Source of the DNA: Acidobacteriota bacterium
Lineage (GTDB): Bacteria; Acidobacteriota; Blastocatellia; Chloracidobacteriales; Chloracidobacteriaceae
Direction of reading: 5' to 3'
NCBI GenBank assembly: GCA_016208495.1
Contig: JACQXX010000060.1
Span: 1-64,000, forward strand
Length of the DNA: 64,000 nucleotides
The notes beneath the pieces were generated by a model. The model searched no databases. It saw only the letters and a program-made list of their open reading frames with translations, and was not told the origin of the DNA. This document shows positions 1,154 to 32,396 of this stretch, one piece after another; within the stretch, counting starts at the first letter, position 1; every line of letters starts with the position of its first letter. The position numbers and the translations under genes were made by a program.

Positions 1154-4100
1154 TCAAAGCACATCCTTACTCTTTAAAACCAGACCGGTCAGGATCAGCA
1201 GTACAACAAAAAAGATGCCTAAAATGGCAAAGTTGAGCGGAATGCTGCCATAGGTGGTTCGAAATCCGACATATTCACGTTTGTCATCAGGTGGGTATTC
1301 GATTTTGGGGGCTTTGGGGGGATCCCCAAGGGATGGCATCGGACCTGGATTTCCACCGCCGCCATACATGGCATTATCAGCCCGGCGCTTATAGTCGGTG
1401 AGTTTTTGTTGTTCTTCCTCTCGGTACTCTTCCAAATCATCTTCAAATTTCTTGATTGCCCGATCATTGGCGGCTTTTACCCGCCCGATTTCTCCGTCTT
1501 CGTCATATTCGTCATTGATTCCCCGCATGACATCCAGATCGCTGATGTGTTTGAGCAGGTCATATGACCACATCGCCGGCATGGCAAACCCAATTGCCTC
1601 AGATGGACCTTTGTTTGGTAACACAAGTCCCCCGAAGAGAATCTGGGGAATCAAAACCAGCGGCACTAAACTTGTGGCAACTTCCGAAGTTCGAACACCA
1701 GCCGAAATCAGCAATCCAATCCCAATTCCGGTCATCGTTGTAAACAACATGCAGAGATAAATCAGCACCGGGTTTCCTGGAACGGCTTCGACCACCGCGC
1801 CAACGCCATAGAGCAAGGCACACTGCAACATGCCTATCAAAACCAGGATAATCAGCTTGGAAAAGATATAGGGCAGAATCCCTAAGTTTACCATTCGCTC
1901 ACGTTTATAGACATTGTTTTCCTTGACGATTTCGCGAGCGGCATTCGAGCATCCAAACCAGAGGGACGACAATGCCAGAATAAAATAGGGGAAATCACGG
2001 GTCCAATCATTTCCAACCGCCAGGCCCATCAACAACGCAATCACCGGGGCTTGACCGAGCAAAATCAACAAGTTGAATTTATCAGCCCACATGACCTCAA
2101 AATAGCGCCGCGCCAGCACAAACATCTGGCGGAGACTCTGCCATAATGTGTTGTCATTGGTGGCTTTTCGGGGTGGTGGTTGGGCAGGCAAACGCTGCAA
2201 CCCACTCAACGGCTGAATGATGTATTTTTGATACGCGGTGGATTGCTCAAATTTTCGCTGCCAGCCAATCGCAACCTGGTCGCTGTTTGGATCACCCAGG
2301 GTGTCAAACAGGTTTTTAATACTGTGAATGCCAAAATATTCGAGGCATTCCTGCGGTGGTCCATACCACACCAGCCGACCGCGCATCATCACCACGAGCT
2401 TGTCAAACAGCTTGACGTTCTCCATCGCGTGGGTGGTCAACACAACTGAATGCCCGGCCTCGGAGATTTGCCGGAAGAGTTGCATAATTTTCTCTTCCGT
2501 CCCTGGATCCAGCCCTGATGTTGGTTCATCCAGATAGATAATTGACGGCTTGGTGATCAATTCCACTGCAATTGAAACCCGTTTGCGCTGGCCACCGGAA
2601 AGCTGGGAAATCGGCACATTTCGCCGTGATGTTAACCCCGTCACATCGAGCACTTCGTTGATGATGTTGTCAATTTCAGCATTGGATGTGTCAGACGACA
2701 GGCGCATCTTGGCCACGTAGAACAGCGTCCGGTAGACCGTCAGTTCCCGATGAATGATGTCATCTTGTGGAACATAGCCAATTGATTGCTTAAAGCTATT
2801 GATGTTTTCATACAGGTTGAGGTTATTGACCAGAACTGTCCCCTGATCGGCTGGACGCATTCCGTTGAGGGCATCCATCAGGGTTGATTTCCCGGCACCG
2901 GATGGACCAATCAGCCCGACGAACTCATTGGCTGGAATTGATAACCGTATCCGATCCAACAACTTAATCATCCCTGAGCCATCGCGGTTTTTCACTTCCT
3001 TGGTGAGGTCAATCACATCAATCCGGGATTGGCTACGCGAGTCAAAGACCACGATTCCGGATGGATCCACCTGCAACATATAGGGCCCAATCTGAACCAG
3101 GTCGTTTGGGCGCACCTGACATCGGCTTACTCGCTGGCCGTTCACATACACGCCATTGGTGCTGCCGGTGTCTTCCACCGTCACCGTTCCACCCTGACGA
3201 ACAAATTTGGCGTGGTGCTTGGAAATCTGCAGGACATCGAGCTGTAAATCAGTGTCAGAGCTGCGCCCAAGGGTGAGTACATCTTTGGTAAATTCTTTGC
3301 GGACAACGAATTGGCGGCGTTCACCTGGTGTGGCTCCAGTAGGGGGTTTCTGGCCGCGGACAATCACGGTACCCGCGCCTTCTTCGTGGGCACTGGCAAT
3401 CACCATCGCAGCCGCCTGGGCCGGATTAACAAATCGAAGTTCTGGTCCGCCAAACCCAAGCTGGATTCGATTTCCATGGCGCAGGGGGGTGGGCGAAGCA
3501 ATCCGTTGCCCATCCAGCAATGTGCCGTTAAATGACCCCAAATCACACAGCAGATATTCGCCGTTCCTGGCTTGAATTTCAGCATGGCGGCGGGACACGG
3601 TGGGAAACACGGCTGGATCCAACCGAATCTGGTTGGTTTCTTCCCGCCCAAGCAGCATCGTGCCGCTACTGGCAAGCTTGAATTGCTCCGTTCGATTCCC
3701 ATTGAGCAACTCCAGGTACACACTGACCGTAACCGGACCATTTCCGCCACTGGATGGCGGTGATGAAAGGGACGGAGACGAAGGAGGGAGTGAAGGGGTT
3801 GACGAAAGTGGAGGTTGTGGTTCAGCCGGAGGCGTGAAACGCACCGAGGCCGGCGGCTGTCCACCACCCCCTTGTGAAACCGGACCAGGCATTCCCGAAG
3901 GTGGCCGTGTCATGGGCTGAACTGGTGGCGAAACCGCCGGAATGGCATTTGGACTTGAACTTACCCCGGCGGCAGGAGATGCCAGAGGTAGTGGTGAGAC
4001 TTCGACTTGCCCGTGCGGATCAAAACTATCAATCCGGATCACCGGGCCACCTTGTCCAAACTGCACGATACACCCAGGTGTCAGCAGTACAGGTCGGTCA

Positions 4101-4327
4101 ATTCGATAATTGTTGACAAATGTCCCGTAGGTACTTTGGAGGTCAGTCAAAACCAGCAAATCGTTATGGAGTCGAATCTCAGCATGCCGCCGCGAAACAC
4201 CCGCATCATTTTCTCCGAATGCAAGCCGGCATTGGCTGGGATCACGACCAATATAAATTAAAGGGTCGCCAATTTCAGTTCGGGTGTTGGCCAAAGCCCC
4301 TTGTAAGTAGGTAATGACAAGTTTCAT
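1154..4327 (-). CDS. FHA-FHA-FHA ABC transporter (ABCG/Rv1747-type exporter)
   Basis: A 1057-residue fused ABC exporter of the inner membrane. Three forkhead-associated domains (about residues 20-95, 220-300 and 345-420) carry GR...SRRHAEI or SKHHA motifs and read phosphothreonine. A Pro/Ser/Gly-rich linker separates the first two. The ATPase follows, with Walker A GPSGAGKST near 475, signature LSGGQRKR near 577 and Walker B IIYLDEPTSGLDP. The C-terminal half is an ABC2-type membrane domain. It contains a charged, coiled-coil-like loop (EEYREEEQQKL) before the last membrane helix. Mycobacterial Rv1747 has a similar plan with two FHA domains and is regulated by Ser/Thr kinase PknF. A Ser/Thr kinase lies at 28725-32396 in this window, but a link is only inferred. 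The substrate is unknown. Confidence 0.9.
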   Translation of the reverse strand: MKLVITYLQGALANTRTEIGDPLIYIGRDPSQCRLAFGENDAGVSRRHAEIRLHNDLLVLTDLQSTYGTFVNNYRIDRPVLLTPGCIVQFGQGGPVIRIDSFDPHGQVEVSPLPLASPAAGVSSSPNAIPAVSPPVQPMTRPPSGMPGPVSQGGGGQPPASVRFTPPAEPQPPLSSTPSLPPSSPSLSSPPSSGGNGPVTVSVYLELLNGNRTEQFKLASSGTMLLGREETNQIRLDPAVFPTVSRRHAEIQARNGEYLLCDLGSFNGTLLDGQRIASPTPLRHGNRIQLGFGGPELRFVNPAQAAAMVIASAHEEGAGTVIVRGQKPPTGATPGERRQFVVRKEFTKDVLTLGRSSDTDLQLDVLQISKHHAKFVRQGGTVTVEDTGSTNGVYVNGQRVSRCQVRPNDLVQIGPYMLQVDPSGIVVFDSRSQSRIDVIDLTKEVKNRDGSGMIKLLDRIRLSIPANEFVGLIGPSGAGKSTLMDALNGMRPADQGTVLVNNLNLYENINSFKQSIGYVPQDDIIHRELTVYRTLFYVAKMRLSSDTSNAEIDNIINEVLDVTGLTSRRNVPISQLSGGQRKRVSIAVELITKPSIIYLDEPTSGLDPGTEEKIMQLFRQISEAGHSVVLTTHAMENVKLFDKLVVMMRGRLVWYGPPQECLEYFGIHSIKNLFDTLGDPNSDQVAIGWQRKFEQSTAYQKYIIQPLSGLQRLPAQPPPRKATNDNTLWQSLRQMFVLARRYFEVMWADKFNLLILLGQAPVIALLMGLAVGNDWTRDFPYFILALSSLWFGCSNAAREIVKENNVYKRERMVNLGILPYIFSKLIILVLIGMLQCALLYGVGAVVEAVPGNPVLIYLCMLFTTMTGIGIGLLISAGVRTSEVATSLVPLVLIPQILFGGLVLPNKGPSEAIGFAMPAMWSYDLLKHISDLDVMRGINDEYDEDGEIGRVKAANDRAIKKFEDDLEEYREEEQQKLTDYKRRADNAMYGGGGNPGPMPSLGDPPKAPKIEYPPDDKREYVGFRTTYGSIPLNFAILGIFFVVLLILTGLVLKSKDVL

Positions 4328-17364: not shown

Positions 17365-19698
17365 ATGAGTGACATCACCATTCTAATTGTTGATGATCTG
17401 CCTGATCACCGCAGACCGCTCAGAAGAAGGCTTGAAACCAAGTTGAAAGTTCGTGTTTTGGAAGCTGATGGCCAAAAAGAAGCCTGGGACATTTTACAAG
17501 AACATCACCAGAATATTGCTCTGGTTGTGGTTGATCTTCATATGAAGACAGGTCCTGACGAAGGAACCCAACTTATCGAACAAATTGTCAACTCTGGGAT
17601 GGATTGCCGGATTGGTGTTCGAACCGCTCATGGAAGAATAGATGATCAGGTTCTAAAAACTAGAACTCCAAGAGTTGATTTTTATGCGAAGAAAGATGAT
17701 GGGATTGACTCATTACTTCAATATATTCAATCAGCTATCAATAGTTTACTTGACTTAAAAATTGCTGATCATCAGATAAATCAGAAGCACCAGGTCTTAG
17801 AAAGATTAAAGGAAAGCCAAAACATCCGGTGGACAGTTCTTGAACCCACAACAGATATTTCATCTGACTCTTCCTCTCAGGAAAAAATTGCGATACGGCT
17901 GTTTTTTGAAATGTGCAGTTGGCAATCAGCAAAATTCAGCACTCAGGAAGGTACTTTTTACAAAATCGAGGCAGAGGGAACGCGCCAAACAACCTCAGTT
18001 GGTTCTCCCGCACTCTTTGAGGCAATTCAATATATTGCACTGCCGTCTCCGACTACGGATCTTACAGCTCACGTTGTCGCTGGAACTGAAATTTGGCATC
18101 CCTGTGAAGGTAAATTTCGCATTTTGCCTCTTCCTGCACCATACATTGAGGGCCAGGAGCCAACTTATCAAATGAACCTTGGGGTTTATCTCAAGAATCA
18201 ATTTTTACCGGAGGCAAATGTAAGGATCCAAAAGGAGAGCATCTTTTTTGATGGAGTACCCTGCGCATCTGTTTCTATTATCCCAGTGAGGCACAACCCT
18301 CGGGTTGGAAATCTTGAGATTCTTTCTTCAGTAGAGCTTGAAATCAATGGGAAGTCACAACCAGGTAGTGCTGACCAAAAGTTCCAGCCCAAGATAAACT
18401 CACCGCTACAAACCATTGTTTTAAATTGGGCAAATGCTTTGCGAGGATATACAGCTAAATCGTCATCTCGACTAACCTCAATGGCTATCAATTCCGAATT
18501 TGATGAAACAACAGACACACTTAAAATACCAGATTTGCCTGCCTTACCAACAAAACCAAATTATTGGATTTTTGGGACTCAAAAAGGCATTGAAGCCATT
18601 CAACCACTTCTTGATGAGCGCGGGAAAACTTTTAACGTCGTGCCGTTCATTCTTGGGGAAGGAAGACTCTCGTTCTCAAGTGACCTCTCCGCTGAGGAAA
18701 AAAGAAAGGCGATTCGGGACTTTTTACAGGAACAATCAGGTGAAACGACCAAACCCAATGACCGACCGGATTATGTTCTGCTGGTCGGCAATCATGAAGT
18801 TATCCCTCATTTTCACTTTGTGGAGTATCATTGTCTTGGTGACGGCACGCTCGACAAAAAAACTCGTCAAGAAATTCAAGGAATTCCGATCTTATCCGAT
18901 TCGCAGTATACCTATTTCCCCGAGATCACTGATGATCCAGGCCCTCGCTTTGCCCTGGGACGGTTGCCGTTCAATGACCCTCAAAAACTGAGAGACTTGT
19001 GTGTCAACTATGTTGCAGGAAAGTTTTGCACACAACTTTCCAATCAATGGAGATTTTTTGTTGGCCTGGATCACGTTAAGCCAAATAAATTTCAACGGCA
19101 TATCGAAGACCGAATCAGGCCGCTGGTTGGAAATAATGCTGATTTTCTGTATTTAGATAGTATGGTTGACCCCAACCGTATGGTTGAACTTGCGCTACGG
19201 AATCCCACCCGGTTTGTTACCTATCGGGGTCATGGTTCGTGCATTGAATGGCAAATCAACCCAAGCCTCAAGCCAACTTTTTTCCAAACACGTCATTTAT
19301 CAGAAAAAAACTATGCAGTTCAGGGAGTAATGGGAATCGCCTGTTGTACCAACGCGCTTCGCCTTCATCCAGCAACCCAAGTCACGGGAAACAGCCGGTG
19401 CAATTTGGGCTATTGCAACACTCATCAAGAGCCGTTTGGCTATACCTGGGTCAAGAATCAGCTTTCTCCCTGGTATCTTGGCTCGACTTCTAAGAGCTTT
19501 TCGTTGGCCAACGATGTGTTCCATGAAGAGTTGGTTTGTCAATTGATTAAACCTTCTGTTTCAACCATCGGAAGTGCTTTCCGCTCTGCTTTAATTGAAT
19601 TCTTGAAAACGACTGAGATGGAGGTTCAACCTCATGTCCGTGACAGTGTGGCGATGTACTTATTAATCGGCGACCCAGCCTGGCCACTGCAACGCTAG
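17365..19698 (+). CDS. Response regulator fused to a gingipain-type (C25) caspase-fold protease
   Basis: A 777-residue fusion. Residues 1-125 form a full receiver domain with acidic pair D10/D11, phospho-acceptor D57 (VVVDLHM) and a Lys in FYAKKD. Residues about 170-370 resemble the gingipain pro-region, with a segment FLPEANV...SIIPVRHNPRVGNLEI. Residues about 385-777 form a C25 protease. H623 in YRGHGS and the C660/C661 pair in GIACCTNA are 37-38 residues apart, as in gingipain RgpB (HGS and NCC motifs). The ending LLIGDPAW also fits. There is no signal peptide and no secretion C-terminal domain, so it should act in the cytosol, unlike known gingipains. A good ribosome binding site (GAGGAG) precedes the ATG. 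The preceding kinase is the likely activator. The target proteins are unknown. Confidence 0.88.
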   Translation: MSDITILIVDDLPDHRRPLRRRLETKLKVRVLEADGQKEAWDILQEHHQNIALVVVDLHMKTGPDEGTQLIEQIVNSGMDCRIGVRTAHGRIDDQVLKTRTPRVDFYAKKDDGIDSLLQYIQSAINSLLDLKIADHQINQKHQVLERLKESQNIRWTVLEPTTDISSDSSSQEKIAIRLFFEMCSWQSAKFSTQEGTFYKIEAEGTRQTTSVGSPALFEAIQYIALPSPTTDLTAHVVAGTEIWHPCEGKFRILPLPAPYIEGQEPTYQMNLGVYLKNQFLPEANVRIQKESIFFDGVPCASVSIIPVRHNPRVGNLEILSSVELEINGKSQPGSADQKFQPKINSPLQTIVLNWANALRGYTAKSSSRLTSMAINSEFDETTDTLKIPDLPALPTKPNYWIFGTQKGIEAIQPLLDERGKTFNVVPFILGEGRLSFSSDLSAEEKRKAIRDFLQEQSGETTKPNDRPDYVLLVGNHEVIPHFHFVEYHCLGDGTLDKKTRQEIQGIPILSDSQYTYFPEITDDPGPRFALGRLPFNDPQKLRDLCVNYVAGKFCTQLSNQWRFFVGLDHVKPNKFQRHIEDRIRPLVGNNADFLYLDSMVDPNRMVELALRNPTRFVTYRGHGSCIEWQINPSLKPTFFQTRHLSEKNYAVQGVMGIACCTNALRLHPATQVTGNSRCNLGYCNTHQEPFGYTWVKNQLSPWYLGSTSKSFSLANDVFHEELVCQLIKPSVSTIGSAFRSALIEFLKTTEMEVQPHVRDSVAMYLLIGDPAWPLQR

Positions 19699-19787: not shown

Positions 19788-20522
19788 ATGGCAACCCCGA
19801 TATTAAAAGTTGAAGGTGACATGATGTCAAACCGTTCTTGGCTTGCAGTCGTGCCAGGGGGGGAAATCAATCAAGCTCCGTTGCGTGAACTTTCATATCA
19901 ACCCGACCTGACCGACACTTCACGTGTTTGGATTCGACTCAATTACCAGGTGAAAGGGTTTTGGATCCATTCGAATCACACAACTTCCGACCAAACGATC
20001 CATATTCCAGGCGTGCGAGTAATGGCAACACCGGGCGCTCCCAAGCTGCCGATGGATGTGTTTTCAATTGCCATCCCTCGCAAAAGCCGTGTGTCTCAAG
20101 ATGGACTCCGAGTCGAGGTGCGTCAGCAAACCAGTGTTCCAGGCACGTACCGGATTCCTCCGGAGCCGCCATTTCAACTCGAACGTGAATCTATTCCAGC
20201 AGCTCCGGATCCTGTGATTTACGAGTCTGGAGCGTTCTTCCCTGAGACAGTGGCGGCTTGCGGCAAAGTCTATACTATTGATGGCATGAATCAGGTGGTC
20301 ATTTCTGTTTTTCCAATTGCCTACGCACCTCAACTCGGGCAGTTGATTGTAAGGAATTCCATTCAGGTTTCCCTCCTGTGCTTGAATGGCAGCGCTTACG
20401 CGCTCGACGAAGTGAAATGGCACTCTCCGGCAGTTCAAAGTATCGTCGGATACAATCATACATTTCTTCGGTCTCGATTCTCTGGAACAACCCGGCCAAG
20501 CGGCCCTGTCGCTGCTATCTAA
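19788..20522 (+). CDS. Standalone protein resembling the C25 pro-region
   Basis: The start is ATG 19788, eight bases after AAAGGAG; an upstream TTG in frame is unlikely. The 244 residues have no signal peptide and no catalytic motif. Residues about 145-215 align by eye with the pro-region of the preceding protease. FFPE...IDGMNQVVISVFPIAYAPQLGQL parallels FLPE...FDGVPCASVSIIPVRHNPRVGNL, and both continue into (R/L)xSIQV-like strands ending in NG. It therefore looks like a free C25 pro-domain. In secreted proteases such pro-domains act as folding aids and inhibitors. Here it could restrain the receiver-protease in trans, which is an inference. It lies 89 bp after the protease gene on the same strand. 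Confidence 0.7.
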   Translation: MATPILKVEGDMMSNRSWLAVVPGGEINQAPLRELSYQPDLTDTSRVWIRLNYQVKGFWIHSNHTTSDQTIHIPGVRVMATPGAPKLPMDVFSIAIPRKSRVSQDGLRVEVRQQTSVPGTYRIPPEPPFQLERESIPAAPDPVIYESGAFFPETVAACGKVYTIDGMNQVVISVFPIAYAPQLGQLIVRNSIQVSLLCLNGSAYALDEVKWHSPAVQSIVGYNHTFLRSRFSGTTRPSGPVAAI

Positions 20523-20845: not shown

Positions 20846-22234
20846 ATGGCTAAAGTACGTGTGCTTGTTGAAATTACACATTCTCAACCTGAAGCCTTTG
20901 CGGTTCGGGCTAGCTTGTTTGATTCTCCGGTTGACTCAGTCCGGGCAAGTGAAGGTTTATTAACGAATTTGGCTGGCTTTGGACTTGAGGTCACTGATGA
21001 GTTTCCACCGGTCCCCATGTTTGCCGACACTGTGGTTCAAGCGGAAACCGTTGGGTTTTCAGCGTTTGACAGCCCGGAAACAAGCCCTGATGCTGAAGCG
21101 GCATCAGTGGTCGTATCCTGTGAAGTCGAACGGTCCAAGCTTCAGGAACTACAGGCTCAAGCTGGGGTTCAAGTTTGGCCAGATGCCGAGATAACACTTT
21201 TCCCGGATGAATGCTGTTCCTGTAGCCTTGGATTCGAAAGTGATGACACAGAACATCCCTTCGATCTGGCTCGATCAAATGGCGGAACTGACTGCCGCCC
21301 ATTTCGCCCAGGAGTTTCAATCCAGGTCATCCGCCAGTTGCTTTCAGTTGGAGCAGTGTGGAGAGATGGGTTTCGAGGTCAAAATATTGTCGTTGGAATC
21401 GTTGATGAAGGAGTCAACGGCCAGGTATACCCAGTGGTAGGCGGCTTTAGTTCTTCAGGTAGCCCTCGGCCAGGCAGTGCGGCCATTACCAGCCACGGCT
21501 CGATGTGTGCGGCTGATGTATTGGTCGCCGCCCCTGCCGCCAAATTATATGACTACCCGTTTATGCAATCTGCCTACTCTGGAACATCATTGCGCATGTT
21601 TCAGGCAGCACTGGATCAACGCCGTTTGGATGGCACACCTCATATCTTGAACAACAGTTGGGGCTTTCGCTGGGTTTCACAAGCCAGTTCTCCCGCCCAC
21701 CCCAATTGGGATGCCAATCACCCATTTAATCGAAAAGTGCGTGAAGTTGTGGCTTCAGGTGCGGCTGTGTTCTTTGCGGCTGGCAATTGTGGCCAGCAAT
21801 GTCCAAGTGGAAACTGTGTTCCTGGCGAGATCGGCCCAGGAAAATCCATTCTTGGACCAGGCAGTTTAAAGAATGTCATCACTGTCGCCGCTGTTAACAG
21901 CCGGCATGAGCGAATCGGATATTCCTCACAAGGTCCAGGATATTTCACCGCGCAAAAACCCGATATTGCCTCATATTCTCATCTGTTTGGCAATTTTGGC
22001 CCAGGTCGCCCCGGCGGTAACGATCCTCCCTTTGACAACGGCACAAGCGCCGCAACTCCGGTGGCAACAGGTGTTGCCGCGCTTTTAAGAAGTGCGCTGG
22101 GACCAATTCCGCCAGAACAGTTAAAACAGGCTTTGATCCAAAGTGCCATTAATCTTGGCGTACCTGGTTGGGACACGGATACCGGATTTGGAGTCATCAA
22201 TGCTGGCGCTGCCTATGCTCTCTTGCGTCGGTAG
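20846..22234 (+). CDS. Cytosolic subtilisin-like serine protease (S8)
   Basis: A 462-residue subtilase. The catalytic triad is D187 (GIVDEGVNG), H217 (SHGSM) and S401 (DNGTSAATP), with oxyanion Asn N314 (AAGNCG). The spacing fits the S8 family. The Asp motif is DEG instead of the usual DTG/DSG, and HGS replaces HGT. Residues 1-130 form a pro-domain-like region ending VWPDAEITLFPDECC. There is no signal peptide, so the enzyme is predicted to remain in the cytosol. A Cys-rich patch (ECCSC, CGQQCPSGNC) is unusual for a secreted subtilase. The start has AAGGAG upstream. It follows the receiver-C25 protease genes on the same strand and may act below them in one pathway, which is an inference. Confidence 0.9.
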   Translation: MAKVRVLVEITHSQPEAFAVRASLFDSPVDSVRASEGLLTNLAGFGLEVTDEFPPVPMFADTVVQAETVGFSAFDSPETSPDAEAASVVVSCEVERSKLQELQAQAGVQVWPDAEITLFPDECCSCSLGFESDDTEHPFDLARSNGGTDCRPFRPGVSIQVIRQLLSVGAVWRDGFRGQNIVVGIVDEGVNGQVYPVVGGFSSSGSPRPGSAAITSHGSMCAADVLVAAPAAKLYDYPFMQSAYSGTSLRMFQAALDQRRLDGTPHILNNSWGFRWVSQASSPAHPNWDANHPFNRKVREVVASGAAVFFAAGNCGQQCPSGNCVPGEIGPGKSILGPGSLKNVITVAAVNSRHERIGYSSQGPGYFTAQKPDIASYSHLFGNFGPGRPGGNDPPFDNGTSAATPVATGVAALLRSALGPIPPEQLKQALIQSAINLGVPGWDTDTGFGVINAGAAYALLRR

Positions 22235-22785: not shown

Positions 22786-23460
22786 TTACTGAATAATCTC
22801 CCCTTCAGTCTTAAACCTTCGGTTGCTGGAATGAAACCGTTCGATCTTGCGTCGAATATCATTGCCAATGTCCTGGATTTCTTTGAAATCACTTTCGCTG
22901 AGATGTTTTTTGAGAATTTCAAAAACCTTGCCGAGTTCAACTCCATACTTGCCGAGCAAAATCTCAATATCGCTTTCGTAAATGCTGACCTTTTCAAGCC
23001 GTCCCTGACGATAGAGTGATGGCAATGCATAAAACTTCAGAATCAAGAGCCCTTCAACCGTCGCGCAAGGAATTGCCTTCCCGCCAAAATATCGCACTGT
23101 GGCGTATTTCTTTTTGATCAGATTGAACAATCTGTTCTTTGTCAAAAGGAAGTCAACTTTGAGCCCTTGAAACCGCCCATTGACGAAGGTCTCGGTTCGA
23201 TTTTCAATCGAAATTTCGGAAAGCGAATTCAAATCTTTTGTGCTGATAATAAAATCAATATCTTGCGTGTTTCGGCCTTCAAAATAGCTCAGGAGTGCCA
23301 CTCCACCCACAAGGAGAAATGAGATTTTTTTGGCTTCGAGGGTATTGAAAAACGCTTCGATAATCTCGGGCAACGCATGGGCCGAGGACGCCTTGCCTTC
23401 CCAGTTCTTCATATCAAATAAAACCCCATTTTTGATGATCTCTCCAATTGTGATATCCAT
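22786..23460 (-). CDS. Nucleotidyltransferase of the AbiEii/DUF6036-like type
   Basis: The start is placed at ATG 23460, giving 224 residues; a longer frame to 23556 overlaps the HEPN gene and lacks a ribosome binding site. The N-terminal half has the nucleotidyltransferase signature LVGGVALLSYFEGRNTQDIDFII (GG, R-T and D-x-D), then KVDFLL as the third acidic strand. The C-terminal half is helical and charged. Proteins of this type include antitoxin-like and phage-abortive-infection enzymes that transfer nucleotides to partners. It is the last gene of a minus-strand run (dcd, MNT, HEPN, this gene), 79 bp behind the HEPN gene. Its true partner and substrate cannot be told from sequence. Confidence 0.75.
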   Translation of the reverse strand: MDITIGEIIKNGVLFDMKNWEGKASSAHALPEIIEAFFNTLEAKKISFLLVGGVALLSYFEGRNTQDIDFIISTKDLNSLSEISIENRTETFVNGRFQGLKVDFLLTKNRLFNLIKKKYATVRYFGGKAIPCATVEGLLILKFYALPSLYRQGRLEKVSIYESDIEILLGKYGVELGKVFEILKKHLSESDFKEIQDIGNDIRRKIERFHSSNRRFKTEGEIIQ

Positions 23461-23539
23461 ATTCTTTTCTTCACTTTCCAGATCAACCTGGAGCGATTTC
23501 CGGCACTTTATCCGTTTGCCTGCAAAATGAGTAACTGGG

Positions 23540-23926
23540 CTATACTGGAAGTCCAAAAGACCCTCGTATCAGTTGACGAATCTGCCGGCATCGCCTCAAT
23601 GCATCTTGAGCCACGGCTTTATTCGCTGAGCTTCCCGGGTATCGAAAAGAGACGGCATACGTTGTCAAAACCCCCAGATCAGTGCTTAATCCACCCCAGG
23701 TTGGTTCAACCGAAAGCACATCGTTCAAAAGTATCAACAAGTTATGAGTTCTTTGAATTGAAAGACCCGCTTCTTCAAGCCGGGCTTTCAGGTATTTTTC
23801 AGCACATTGTTGGGCATGAAAACAAGCAGCGTCGAAATTTGGGCTTTTTCGTGCTCTCAGTTCACGTTGTGCTGACACCCAATCGCCTTCTGCTTTGTCA
23901 ATCCATTCGGTGGTTGTGAGCCTCAT
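23540..23926 (-). CDS. HEPN domain protein (likely toxin partner of MNT)
   Basis: A 128-residue all-helical protein. The start at ATG 23926 follows GGAAAGG and overlaps the end of the MNT gene by 29 bases, a common arrangement in MNT-HEPN toxin-antitoxin pairs. HEPN features are KAEGDWVSAQREL, CFHAQQCAEKYLKA and THNL, with RYPG near the end. The RX4-6H ribonuclease motif of HepT toxins is not evident. RNase activity is therefore uncertain, and the protein could instead be a binding or regulatory HEPN of the PF05168 type. It acts in the cytosol, presumably as a complex with the MNT protein. Confidence 0.85.
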   Translation of the reverse strand: MRLTTTEWIDKAEGDWVSAQRELRARKSPNFDAACFHAQQCAEKYLKARLEEAGLSIQRTHNLLILLNDVLSVEPTWGGLSTDLGVLTTYAVSFRYPGSSANKAVAQDALRRCRQIRQLIRGSFGLPV

Positions 23927-24227
23927 GAAGCACCTTTCCTTGACTGACAATTTCCTCTACAAAACGATCTCCAATGCTGAGACGTGCCTGAATCTGTTGG
24001 GGTGTCCGAACCAATAAATCCACAGCAATTGACGGATTAACCTGGGTAAGAATCTCGGCTGCTTTGAGAAGCGGATGACCTTCAAAAGGCATAACCACCA
24101 GTAAATCCACATCGGAATCCCACCGTGGCTGACCATAGGCGTGAGATCCAAATAAGACGATTTTCTCAGGATGAAACCGCTCAACAATTTGGTCACACAG
24201 ACTTTGAATTTCACGTGTGGAAGTCAT
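23898..24227 (-). CDS. MNT-type nucleotidyltransferase (likely antitoxin)
   Basis: A 109-residue minimal nucleotidyltransferase. AAAGGAG eight bases before ATG 24227 fixes the start; the frame could otherwise be extended into dcd. The catalytic motif is GSHAYGQPRWDSDVDLLVV (GSx10DxD), with AVDLLV as the third acidic strand. In type VII toxin-antitoxin systems such an enzyme AMPylates and silences its HEPN partner. The HEPN gene here overlaps it downstream, which supports that role. It begins 23 bp after the dcd stop, so the two genes are probably on one transcript. Confidence 0.87.
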   Translation of the reverse strand: MTSTREIQSLCDQIVERFHPEKIVLFGSHAYGQPRWDSDVDLLVVMPFEGHPLLKAAEILTQVNPSIAVDLLVRTPQQIQARLSIGDRFVEEIVSQGKVLHEAHNHRMD

Positions 24228-24250
24228 TACCGCTTCTCCTTTGCTTACAT

Positions 24251-24841
24251 TCAGACTTTCGCCAGCGTTAGCCCCTGCTGGTCCTGGTACTTGCCGGAGC
24301 GGTCCTGGTACGACGTGGAGCATTCTTCGTCAGATTCAAAGAAAATAATCTGGACAAAGCCTTCTTCGGCATAGAGCCGCACCGGAAGGTTGGCGGCATT
24401 ATAGAGTTCGACTACCAAACGGCCACGCCAGTTAGCCTCCAGTGGTGTTGTATTTACAATTAGTCCGCAGCGTGCATACGTCGATTTCCCAAGAGCAAGA
24501 GCAGTAACATTCCGTGGCATATGAAAGCGTTCAATCGTCACACCCAATGCGTAGGAATGCGGCGGCAACAGCCAATAATTTGAACCATCGGTGTCTTTGC
24601 GGAGTGGAATATCCAAAAGACTGCTCGAATCAAAGTTCTTCGGGTCAATTTCCGTTCCCTGAATTGGGGAAAACACTTTAAACTCATCTTTTGCCAGCCG
24701 GCAGTCATACCCGTAACTCGACAACCCGCAACTAATCACTTTGCGGTCTTCAACCTGGCGAATCAGTTTTGATTCAAATGGGGTAATAAGTTGGTTCTCT
24801 TCGCACATCCGAAGAATCCAGCGATCTGATTTGATAGCCAC
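24251..24841 (-). CDS. dcd: dCTP deaminase
   Basis: A 196-residue enzyme of the usual Dcd length. It deaminates dCTP to dUTP as a step toward dTTP in the cytosol. Family motifs are SSYGYDCRL, the Arg/Ser segment GKSTYARCG and the catalytic Glu in TPLEANWRGRLVVELYN. The end GKYQDQQGLTLA is typical of the nucleotide-binding C-terminus. Whether it is mono- or bifunctional (dCTP to dUMP) cannot be decided here. It is the first gene of a minus-strand run with MNT and HEPN genes. dCTP deaminases are also known as anti-phage nucleotide depleters, but this copy looks like the housekeeping enzyme. Confidence 0.95.
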   Translation of the reverse strand: MAIKSDRWILRMCEENQLITPFESKLIRQVEDRKVISCGLSSYGYDCRLAKDEFKVFSPIQGTEIDPKNFDSSSLLDIPLRKDTDGSNYWLLPPHSYALGVTIERFHMPRNVTALALGKSTYARCGLIVNTTPLEANWRGRLVVELYNAANLPVRLYAEEGFVQIIFFESDEECSTSYQDRSGKYQDQQGLTLAKV

Positions 24842-28724: not shown

Positions 28725-31700
28725 TCAATCGTTTCCGCTTGAATATGGGTTGAGGATTTCGCCGGTCACCTGGTTGTTGAGTGAGGTTTCCGCAGTCGAA
28801 CGTGAGGGTATGGTAACGATTTGGGTTACCTGATCCGCGAGCGGCATGTCCAGTGGTTGCTGCAAGCTATCAAGGGCAACGGTGGGTTGATCCGCTAACC
28901 GTTGATGCGGGCCCTCAACCTCGTCATCAGTATCATACTCAGCAAACTGCTCAGTCAGTGCTCTGAGTAAATCCGCAAACTCACGTGCCGTTGGACGGGC
29001 CTCTGGTTGCTTGACCAGTGCCTTGAGGACGGCAGCATCAACTTCTGGTGGAATCGTTGGATTAATTGATCGGAGCGAGGGCGGCAATTCATTCAGATGC
29101 GCCACAATCAGATGATAGGCACTGTTGTTTTCACTCACAAAGGGCGGACGACCACATAGACACTCGTAAAACATGATTCCAACGCTATAAATATCTGATC
29201 GTCCGTCATAGGTGCCGTCCCAGAGTCGTTCAGGTGCCATATAAGTCGGGGTCCCCACGATGCCGCCGGTTACCGTTAATTTCTTTCCGCTGGCTTCCGA
29301 ATCATCAAGCATCTTGGCTACCCCGAAATCCACAACTTTGACGACTTCGCCTTCCGGTGACCGGTGTAAAAAAATATTGGCTGGTTTGATGTCGCGATGG
29401 ATGATCCCCAGGCGGTGGGCTTCGGCGAGTCCTTCACACACGGCGCGCATCACCCTCAGGGTCCGGCGGAGGCTCAATCGTTTTCGAATATGGAGTTCCT
29501 CGCTGAGCGAACATCCATCCAGCAACTCCATCACCAGATAGGCAATGCCTTCAGCCGAAATTCCAGAGTCAAACACCTGAATGGCATTCGGATGGTTGAT
29601 GCGTGACGAAGAAACCCCCTCCAGGCGGAACCGTTCAACCGCATCCGCCGAATCGTTTCCCGGTGCCGGGCGAAAGACTTTGACGGCAATCGGACGATGA
29701 AGCACCAGATGCGTTCCACGAAACACAGCCCCAAAGCCGCCAGAGCCGATTTTCTCTTCAAGCCGGTACTTCCCTTCCAAAACCGTTCCCGGCAAGGCTT
29801 CTGCCAGAGCCGAGAAAATCCGGTCCGCCTGCTGATGAGAAATGATCAAATCCTGATTGGCCCGGTCGAGTGCGGCAACTTTCTGATCCAGTTCGGTATT
29901 TTTGCGCTCGGTTTCAAGCTTGGCGAGTCGAACCTGTTCAATATTTTCAGCCAGTTCGGCATTTTTCGTGGCCAGTTCGGCGGTGCGCTCGACCACGACG
30001 GCTTCAAGTTGGGCCGCTCGCCGATTGAGTGCCCGTAGTCGCAGCCGAACCCCGCCATACACGCTCCCGGCAATCAGAGCGAATCCAGCCAGATAGGCCC
30101 ACGGTGTTTGGTACCAGTGCGGGCGAATTCTGAACGTAAAAGCGGCTCCGGTCTCATTCCAGACGCCATCGTTGTTGCAGGCCAGGACTCTGAACCGGTA
30201 GGAACGCGGCGGCAAGTTGGTGTAGCCAATCCGTCGTTGATCGCCGGTTTCAATCCACGCCCGGTCATAGCCTTCGAGCATGACCTTGAATCGAACTTTG
30301 GCTGGTGCCAGAAAACTGAGCGCAGTGTAGCGAAACTCCAGTTTGTCCGCCCCTGGCGCCAATTCGACTGATGCCGCCAAATCAACCGACTTCCCATCAA
30401 CCAGAACCTGTTCGACCGCAATCGGCGGCGGAACCGGATTCCGCAGGATGTGATCCGGGTGAATCGTGATCAGACCGGCCACCCCGGCAAACCAGAAGCG
30501 CCCATCACGTCCACAAATCGCCGCCGGTTGGGCAATCCCGTTGCACTGGTTATTGCGCATGCCATCGTCACGGGTGAAGGCTTCATGGGTAAATGATGGA
30601 CGCTTGCCATCGCAAAAATCCTCGATATCCTGTTTGCGTACCCGCGAAATGCCCCGATTGGAACTCATCCAGAGGTATCCGCTCCGGTCTTCCAGCATTG
30701 AAAACACGGCGTTATCCGCCAGCCCATTGCGAGTTGTAATCGGGGTCATCCGCCCGTTTTTGAGCCGGGCCAGTCCACCATTCGTGCTGACCCAAACAGT
30801 GCCAGCCGAATCAACCGCGAGTGAACGGACGGTGTCATCAGGCATTCCATCTTGAGAGTGCCACACGCGAAACGTCTCATCTTTGAAATAGTGCAACCCC
30901 AAAAATGACCCAACCCACAGACCATCGCCGATTTTGTCTTCCACCAGGACCACCACTGAGTTGTGTGCCAAACCATCCGCCGTGGTGTAGGTCCGAAAAG
31001 TACCGTTTTCATATCGGGTGAGGCCGCCAGCGCGAGTTCCAAACCACATCGTCCCGTGGCGGTCCTCCAGAATGGCATACACGGGTTGTTGCGTTTGCCC
31101 AGGGTGACCCTGAAAGGATGTCACCTGACCATTGGCAATCCGCACCACGCCAGAACCATTGAACCCAACCCAAATGGCCCCGGTGTGGTCTTCAGCGAGT
31201 GAGCGAATAAAATTGTTAAGTAAGCCAGTTTCAGCAGTATAGGTCACAACTGACCGATCAGGCTTGAGGCAATTAAGCCCATTGCCGTTGGTGCCGATCC
31301 ACAAATTTCCCTGACGATCTTCAAGCACCACCCGCACGTTGTTATCCGCCAGCCCATGGCGCTTGTTGTAGACGGTAAACTTCTCATCTTTAAAGCAGTT
31401 GAGCCCGCCGCCAGTGGTACCAACCCAGAGATTGCCTTCCTGATCTTCATAAATGGTTCGGACCAGATCATTGGTCAGGCCGTCTTTTTGAGAAAAGTAG
31501 GTAAAATGTCCAGCGGTCAAGCGTCCTAAACCACCGCCTTCAAATCCCATCCACAAATTGCCATCTCGATCCCGATACATAACACTGATTTGGAGCGGCA
31601 GCAGGCCATCGGCAACGGTGTAGGTGGTAACTTTTCCGTTGACCAAATGATGGAGTTTCCCCAGGTTTGCCCCCCACAGGGTGCCATCGCGGTCCTGAAA

Positions 31701-32396
31701 CAGGCAGGAATGTTGATTGTCAGCCAGGGCATCAAACTCACTGGCCAATGAAATCTTGACAGTTTCCGAAGGTGTGACCCGCACGATGCCGACATCCGGT
31801 GTAAAAGCCAGGAGCCCCTGCTCGGTTTCGCCAAACATCACGGAATGTTGGTTGAGAATGTCGAGAGATCCAGGAAATGAGGAAATTTTCCCGTTTCGGA
31901 TCACGGCGTATCCGCCAAAGGTGTTGACCCAGATGGAGCCATCCTGTGCGGTATATACATCCTGGGTGACTTTATGGGGTAATCCGTCTTCGGTGGTATA
32001 ACTGGTGAATCGGTGGTTCCGATAGGAAAGCAGTCCTGTGCTTGAAACCGCCCAGAGTGTTCCATCAAGTCCAACACAGATCGGACCGACGCTGTTTGAT
32101 TTGAGTTCTGGGGTGTTTCGGGTATCAAAAACGGTGAACTGCACTCCGTCAAAGCGAACCAGTCCTTCATAGGTCGAAAACCAGAGGTATCCATCCGGGG
32201 TTTGAGCCAGGCGATGGACGGAATTTTGCGGCAATTCCTCCTGCCAGGTAAAAAACCCGTACTCAGTGATCGCTTTGTTTGGGTCAAGCGCAACCACTGG
32301 CGATGACAACACCAGACACCCAAGAAACGACCACACCCAGGCCAACCGCCAGGGGGACAGAGCTTTCCAGCTTTTCAAAATGAAGCGACCGAGCAT
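28725..32396 (-). CDS. Beta-propeller sensor fused to a Ser/Thr protein kinase
   Basis: A 1223-residue membrane receptor. A signal peptide or anchor lies at residues 18-37. About residues 45-650 form two-component-regulator propeller repeats (GYLWFSTYEGLVRFDG, GNLWVGTTGGGLNCF and others). A Y_Y_Y domain (about 690-755, ending LPPRSYRFRVLACNNDGVWNE) leads to a membrane helix near 765-785 and a coiled coil to about 860. The cytosolic kinase (about 878-1150) has GSGGFGAVFRG, the VAIK-like Lys in IAVKVF, HRDIKPANI and VDFGVAKM, so it looks active. In most bacteria such propeller modules are joined to histidine kinases or diguanylate cyclases. The Ser/Thr kinase output is notable. Its targets might include FHA proteins such as the exporter at 1154. 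Confidence 0.9.
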   Translation of the reverse strand: MLGRFILKSWKALSPWRLAWVWSFLGCLVLSSPVVALDPNKAITEYGFFTWQEELPQNSVHRLAQTPDGYLWFSTYEGLVRFDGVQFTVFDTRNTPELKSNSVGPICVGLDGTLWAVSSTGLLSYRNHRFTSYTTEDGLPHKVTQDVYTAQDGSIWVNTFGGYAVIRNGKISSFPGSLDILNQHSVMFGETEQGLLAFTPDVGIVRVTPSETVKISLASEFDALADNQHSCLFQDRDGTLWGANLGKLHHLVNGKVTTYTVADGLLPLQISVMYRDRDGNLWMGFEGGGLGRLTAGHFTYFSQKDGLTNDLVRTIYEDQEGNLWVGTTGGGLNCFKDEKFTVYNKRHGLADNNVRVVLEDRQGNLWIGTNGNGLNCLKPDRSVVTYTAETGLLNNFIRSLAEDHTGAIWVGFNGSGVVRIANGQVTSFQGHPGQTQQPVYAILEDRHGTMWFGTRAGGLTRYENGTFRTYTTADGLAHNSVVVLVEDKIGDGLWVGSFLGLHYFKDETFRVWHSQDGMPDDTVRSLAVDSAGTVWVSTNGGLARLKNGRMTPITTRNGLADNAVFSMLEDRSGYLWMSSNRGISRVRKQDIEDFCDGKRPSFTHEAFTRDDGMRNNQCNGIAQPAAICGRDGRFWFAGVAGLITIHPDHILRNPVPPPIAVEQVLVDGKSVDLAASVELAPGADKLEFRYTALSFLAPAKVRFKVMLEGYDRAWIETGDQRRIGYTNLPPRSYRFRVLACNNDGVWNETGAAFTFRIRPHWYQTPWAYLAGFALIAGSVYGGVRLRLRALNRRAAQLEAVVVERTAELATKNAELAENIEQVRLAKLETERKNTELDQKVAALDRANQDLIISHQQADRIFSALAEALPGTVLEGKYRLEEKIGSGGFGAVFRGTHLVLHRPIAVKVFRPAPGNDSADAVERFRLEGVSSSRINHPNAIQVFDSGISAEGIAYLVMELLDGCSLSEELHIRKRLSLRRTLRVMRAVCEGLAEAHRLGIIHRDIKPANIFLHRSPEGEVVKVVDFGVAKMLDDSEASGKKLTVTGGIVGTPTYMAPERLWDGTYDGRSDIYSVGIMFYECLCGRPPFVSENNSAYHLIVAHLNELPPSLRSINPTIPPEVDAAVLKALVKQPEARPTAREFADLLRALTEQFAEYDTDDEVEGPHQRLADQPTVALDSLQQPLDMPLADQVTQIVTIPSRSTAETSLNNQVTGEILNPYSSGND

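Follow-up and report, generated by a model that had tools for sequence, protein, structure and literature searches.

A response-regulator receiver joined to a prodomain-caged C25 peptidase beside a soluble sensor kinase gene

We found that the window, a stretch of 64,000 nucleotides from an Acidobacteriota bacterium, encodes a protein in which a response-regulator receiver is followed by a C25 prodomain and a C25 peptidase domain (Table 1). We regard this combination of a receiver with a caged C25 protease as a genuine architecture, undescribed as far as we searched, and the protein is a variant of two kinds already known, namely response regulators with enzymatic output and C25 peptidases. 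Two-component systems mostly have transcription or second-messenger outputs, while the C25 family is known for secreted virulence proteases. The stop codon of a soluble histidine kinase gene lies 12 bp before the ATG of the fusion, and this spacing makes it very likely that the fusion belongs to a phosphorelay. The arrangement suggests that the cell switches on internal proteolysis by phosphorylation.

Table 1 Features of the locus, in positions of the window
Feature	Position	Strand	Basis
Soluble hybrid-type sensor kinase, 1792 aa	11974..17352	+	Pfam GAF x6 and HATPase_c; motifs; hydropathy
Fusion of receiver, helix, C25 prodomain and C25 peptidase, 777 aa	17365..19698	+	One ORF, three Pfam domains
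Receiver domain, residues 1-125	17365..17739	+	Pfam E 8.8e-11; modelled receiver fold; Foldseek REC matches
D57 codon of the receiver	17533-17535	+	
Predicted long helix, residues 110-150, receiver-prodomain linker	17692..17814	+	DSSP on AlphaFold model
C25 prodomain, residues 171-336	17875..18372	+	Pfam Propeptide_C25 E 3.6e-9; phmmer against Kgp prodomain 5mun
C25 catalytic domain, residues 442-774	18688..19686	+	Pfam E 2.7e-17; alignments; profile to RgpB/Kgp structures
C25 active-site codons D569, H623, C660	19069-19071; 19231-19233; 19342-19344	+	
Free-standing C25 prodomain protein, 244 aa, leaderless, without protease domain	19788..20522	+	Pfam, BLASTP
S8 subtilase, 462 aa, leaderless, N-terminal prodomain-like region	20846..22234	+	Pfam Peptidase_S8 E 1.3e-27
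Probable free copy of the subtilase prodomain, 76 aa	22361..22591	+	Similarity to subtilase N-terminus

The coordinates and frame given for the fusion in a preliminary description of this DNA proved correct: the ORF runs through 777 codons with zero internal stops, and a ribosome-binding-like GAGGAG lies 5' of its ATG. A domain search for receiver, C25 propeptide and C25 peptidase gave three matches over the curated Pfam cut-offs, of which Response_reg covers residues 6-102 (42.4 bits against a cut-off of 30.2) and Peptidase_C25 scores 63.5 bits against a cut-off of 23. The intact receiver claimed earlier on the basis of D10, D11 and D57 is borne out, with T87 and K109 also kept, and the claimed pro-region and C25 domain are likewise recovered, with GHGS at residues 622-625 and ACCT at residues 659-662. 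The receiver and the protease do not fall into separate proteins, as they share a single stop-free frame and the codon-position base composition is continuous across the receiver-prodomain joint. The GC content is 42-45% across the kinase end and the fusion against about 50-53% on both flanks, which would weakly fit acquisition from elsewhere.

No signal peptide or transmembrane segment is apparent from hydropathy and from reading of the N-terminus, used in place of a dedicated predictor; the protein starts with MSDITILIVDD, part of the receiver, and its highest 19-residue hydropathy is 1.0, in agreement with the missing signal peptide of the preliminary description. At the other end, the protein finishes with the C25 domain, with no further Pfam domain and no C-terminal secretion domain. 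Judged by these sequence features, the fusion is apparently cytosolic.

The AlphaFold model built from four aligned rows folds the receiver with pLDDT mostly 63-82 and continues it into the helix of residues 110-150, along which pLDDT drops from ~65 to ~30; this would be a possible dimerisation helix. In Foldseek, the modelled receiver groups with the receivers of RssB, XynC and PhoP. The prodomain and protease, modelled from 3-4 aligned sequences with two outside homologues, reach pLDDT < 50, the C25 part being near 30, and a separate model of the C25 part is likewise near 30 and too poor for judging domain contacts or fold. The caspase-like fold of the protease is thus one that we infer from family membership.

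Comparison with known proteins places the fusion firmly in peptidase family C25. A profile of alignment A1, which comprises the fusion and nine other C25 proteins and whose matches lean on all ten, hits the solved structures of RgpB (1cvr, 4.3e-46) and Kgp (4rbm, 6.4e-41), and also PorU, as well as the prodomain structures of Kgp (5mun, 8.6e-18) and RgpB (4ief chain A, 8.6e-4). The fusion sequence alone finds the Kgp prodomain 5mun at E 4.4e-5 and receivers at about 4e-3 in phmmer, and C25 catalytic-domain structures are unmatched in this single-sequence search of solved structures. The gingipain-type output of the preliminary description therefore holds as membership of the C25 family (Pfam, profile), but the fusion falls outside the gingipains proper, since it has neither of their secretion features, a signal peptide and a C-terminal secretion domain.

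Specifically, residues D569, H623 and C660 are invariant in three-sequence alignments with the gingipain-type proteins L058/L063, L060 and L062, while in the ten-row, more diverse alignment the position of the catalytic cysteine slid by one residue. The cysteine pair noted earlier is present, and its undecided choice between C660 and C661 is refined by the three-sequence alignments, which make C660, the first of the two, the better candidate nucleophile. D569, the third active-site acid, is aligned with RgpB E152 in the profile alignment read by eye. An insertion of ~20 residues behind C660 contains C679 and C684. RgpB D163, the S1 acid, falls near F576/K575 of the fusion in alignments read by eye, a placement that is not reliable.

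The kinase encoded upstream carries a receiver-like stretch without a phospho-site at its N-terminus, as read by eye, and H1563 is the candidate phosphoacceptor by motif reading. Among 15 relatives, zero kinase matches were found at E <= 1e-30.

The free-standing prodomain gene starts 89 bases downstream of the fusion and has GGAG 5' of it. Its product matches Propeptide_C25 (Pfam E 1.1e-5) and the fused prodomain (BLASTP E 8e-7, identity 23-25%), with a Smith-Waterman score of 101 against a shuffled mean of 32 (sd 4.8). We rejected the idea of a disrupted protease gene of which only the 5' part is left, as no C25 remnant lies 3' of it, and so it is no obvious broken copy. The subtilase gene follows after a gap of 323 bp and is possibly a separate transcription unit; the motifs around its D, H and S were located. 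The 76-aa ORF, whose ATG is preceded by GGAGG and which has zero Pfam matches, resembles the subtilase N-terminus with a shuffle fraction of 0.014 at standard gaps and <= 0.001 with lenient gap extension, settings picked after the two-block similarity had been seen; because of this post hoc choice, its kinship with the subtilase prodomain is only probable. Its similarity to a related subtilase from a Sinorhizobium chiapasense plasmid is weak (shuffle fraction 0.084); that gene (L093, 4326-6167) is unannotated in its record, and the N-terminus of its product has tandem PPLGPxVGGAG-type repeats. Scans for promoters and terminators gave sites no more numerous than in shuffles. The free C25 prodomain, the subtilase without a leader and the latter's probable free prodomain do not feature in the preliminary description of the fusion; with them, what was one fused enzyme would become a group of caged proteases accompanied by loose cages.

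Other genes in the window deserve mention. On the minus strand, positions 22786-24323 encode an AbiEii-like nucleotidyltransferase (weak, E 0.0016), a HEPN protein and an MNT-type nucleotidyltransferase, and the HEPN and MNT-type genes adjoining the locus form a HEPN/MNT toxin-antitoxin pair. The same strand encodes an ABC-2 type transporter with three N-terminal FHA domains (1154-4327) and a 1223-aa protein in which a serine/threonine kinase domain, joined to a propeller of the two-component-regulator type (Reg_prop, Y_Y_Y), replaces the usual histidine kinase (28725-32396).

C25 domains are common, being present in 108 of 162 genomes of the class and in 140 of 396 genomes of the phylum sample. 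Among the matches listed, down to ~50 bits, nearly every C25 protein of the class has a score of 200-300 bits and lies in a long frame, the score and length that secreted enzymes should show, and one genome of the same class carries eleven C25 genes or more. The 396 phylum genomes, the 162 class genomes, two further classes and the pattern scans yielded no second receiver-C25 fusion; the fusion is therefore single within the collections searched. The pattern scans covered about 85,000 genomes, plasmids and phages and reach close relatives only, and the ten-row alignment is too diverse to serve as a scan pattern; two scans of genome contigs gave zero matches and two ordinary C25 loci, respectively, and scans of viral, phage and plasmid collections gave zero relatives. 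Searched against 39 relatives, the full fusion matched ordinary receivers only, and two of these matches (L004, L017) are PAS-type kinases with C-terminal receivers. In the genome that carries the fusion, a receiver in a 793-aa frame (L075) belongs to an ordinary receiver-GAF kinase. No orthologues were found in the genomes searched that could show co-variation or a joint occurrence of the kinase, the fusion and the free prodomain. In the open-access literature, we found no protein joining a receiver to a C25 or caspase-type output.

A query of the prodomain plus C25 domain against the phylum, the class and two more classes returned only secreted-type C25 proteins or a leaderless C25-like clade. 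This clade (L064, L068, L069, L070) occurs in scattered phylum genomes with CHG and ECC[YF]G motifs and scores at or below the Pfam C25 cut-off; L070 has two PPC domains. Because such leaderless, receiver-free proteins exist, C25-type domains may act inside cells elsewhere. The only other C25 gene of the genome that carries the fusion encodes 601 aa with no leader seen; it lies behind CHAT-SIR2_2 and nSTAND1-WD40 genes on contig C158 (L066, 2239-9616), a conflict-system-like operon seemingly using a C25 protease.

With middling confidence, we propose a cytosolic two-component system with proteolysis as its output, in which phosphorylation of D57 frees the C25 site and the free prodomain inhibits it. 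The soluble GAF kinase would sense an internal signal and phosphorylate D57 of the fusion receiver, as the gene spacing and the intact residues suggest; the phosphorylated receiver would then, via the helix of residues 110-150, shift the prodomain position or the dimer state, whereupon the site formed by D569, H623 and C660 would open or the zymogen would process itself. Displacement of the prodomain by phosphorylation, as proposed in the preliminary description, would be the most natural mechanism. The free prodomain could bind released C25 domains and so set a threshold or an off-switch. A C25 prodomain should be able to bind in trans, because the RgpB entry 4ief contains the prodomain and the mature domain as separate chains (4ief_A, 4ief_B); at 23-25% identity to the fused prodomain, the free one may have another partner. 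The caged subtilase with its probable free prodomain might be a next step of a cascade, the weakest link of this scheme, and lying 323 bp further on it may be unrelated to the fusion. That the kinase releases the receiver-fused C25 zymogen, which in turn activates the caged subtilase, both being buffered by separate prodomains, seems to us rather doubtful; if true, the logic would be comparable to caspase activation with dedicated inhibitors.

Several other explanations have to be weighed against a phosphorylation-switched protease. An artefact of assembly or annotation, by which two genes were joined, would agree with the fusion being a singleton in the phylum, class and pattern-scan collections, but is hardly credible given the 777 stop-free codons, the unbroken composition at the joint and the coherent neighbour genes on both sides. 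It is also very unlikely that the C25 domain is dead or serves for binding only: the catalytic residues are present and invariant with active-type relatives, even though the domain, at 63.5 bits, lies below the 200-300 bits that most of the class's C25 proteins reach among the matches listed, and carries the insertion behind C660.

The function of the receiver and the purpose of the module admit further alternatives. C25 enzymes are generally freed by removal of the prodomain, which counts for a receiver that serves docking or dimerisation only, with the protease switched by self-processing or a co-factor independently of D57. Receivers can indeed function without phosphorylation (PMC11229360), but with all phospho-site residues kept and a kinase gene adjoining we consider such a receiver improbable here. 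The locus could instead be a suicide or anti-invader module: once the kinase signals damage or infection, the released proteases would halt or kill the cell, with the free prodomains acting as antidotes. In favour of this are the two caged proteases, each with a loose prodomain-like gene behind it, the adjoining HEPN/nucleotidyltransferase genes and the conflict-system setting of the genome's other C25 gene; however, PADLOC models match neither the fusion, the kinase nor the free prodomain and give one generic subtilase match only, the fusion is absent from the phage and plasmid collections scanned, and a phospho-switch is reversible, which most suicide effectors are not, so that we judge this purpose unlikely.

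With a prodomain-caged endopeptidase attached to a receiver, a histidine kinase would have proteolysis as a direct output, and an enzyme family whose known members are secreted virulence proteases would be seen in use inside a cell. Genes for free prodomains next to those for caged proteases would be a simple way for nature to set protease thresholds.

Compared with known systems, the fusion resembles the gingipains RgpB and Kgp in its C25 catalytic domain, in the acid, His and Cys of the active site and in the homologous prodomain that precedes the catalytic domain. Unlike them, it is without a signal peptide and a C-terminal Ig-like or type IX secretion domain, and its prodomain comes after a receiver; unlike in RgpB, the S1 acid does not appear kept, as judged by eye. 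The leaderless C25-like clade likewise has CC where the nucleophile lies, together with an insertion like that of the fusion, but lacks the receiver and the C25 prodomain, and two of its four members have a weak or no Pfam C25 match. Enzymes with attached receivers are well known (PMC5847659), and CheB, diguanylate cyclases and others likewise have an N-terminal phosphorylatable receiver, a C-terminal enzyme and an adjoining kinase gene, whereas the fusion has as its output an endopeptidase that carries its cage with it. SAVED-CHAT and CalpL of type III CRISPR systems also join a signalling input domain to a protease (PMC11229360); these proteins sense cyclic nucleotides, whereas the fusion has a phosphorylatable receiver and a kinase.
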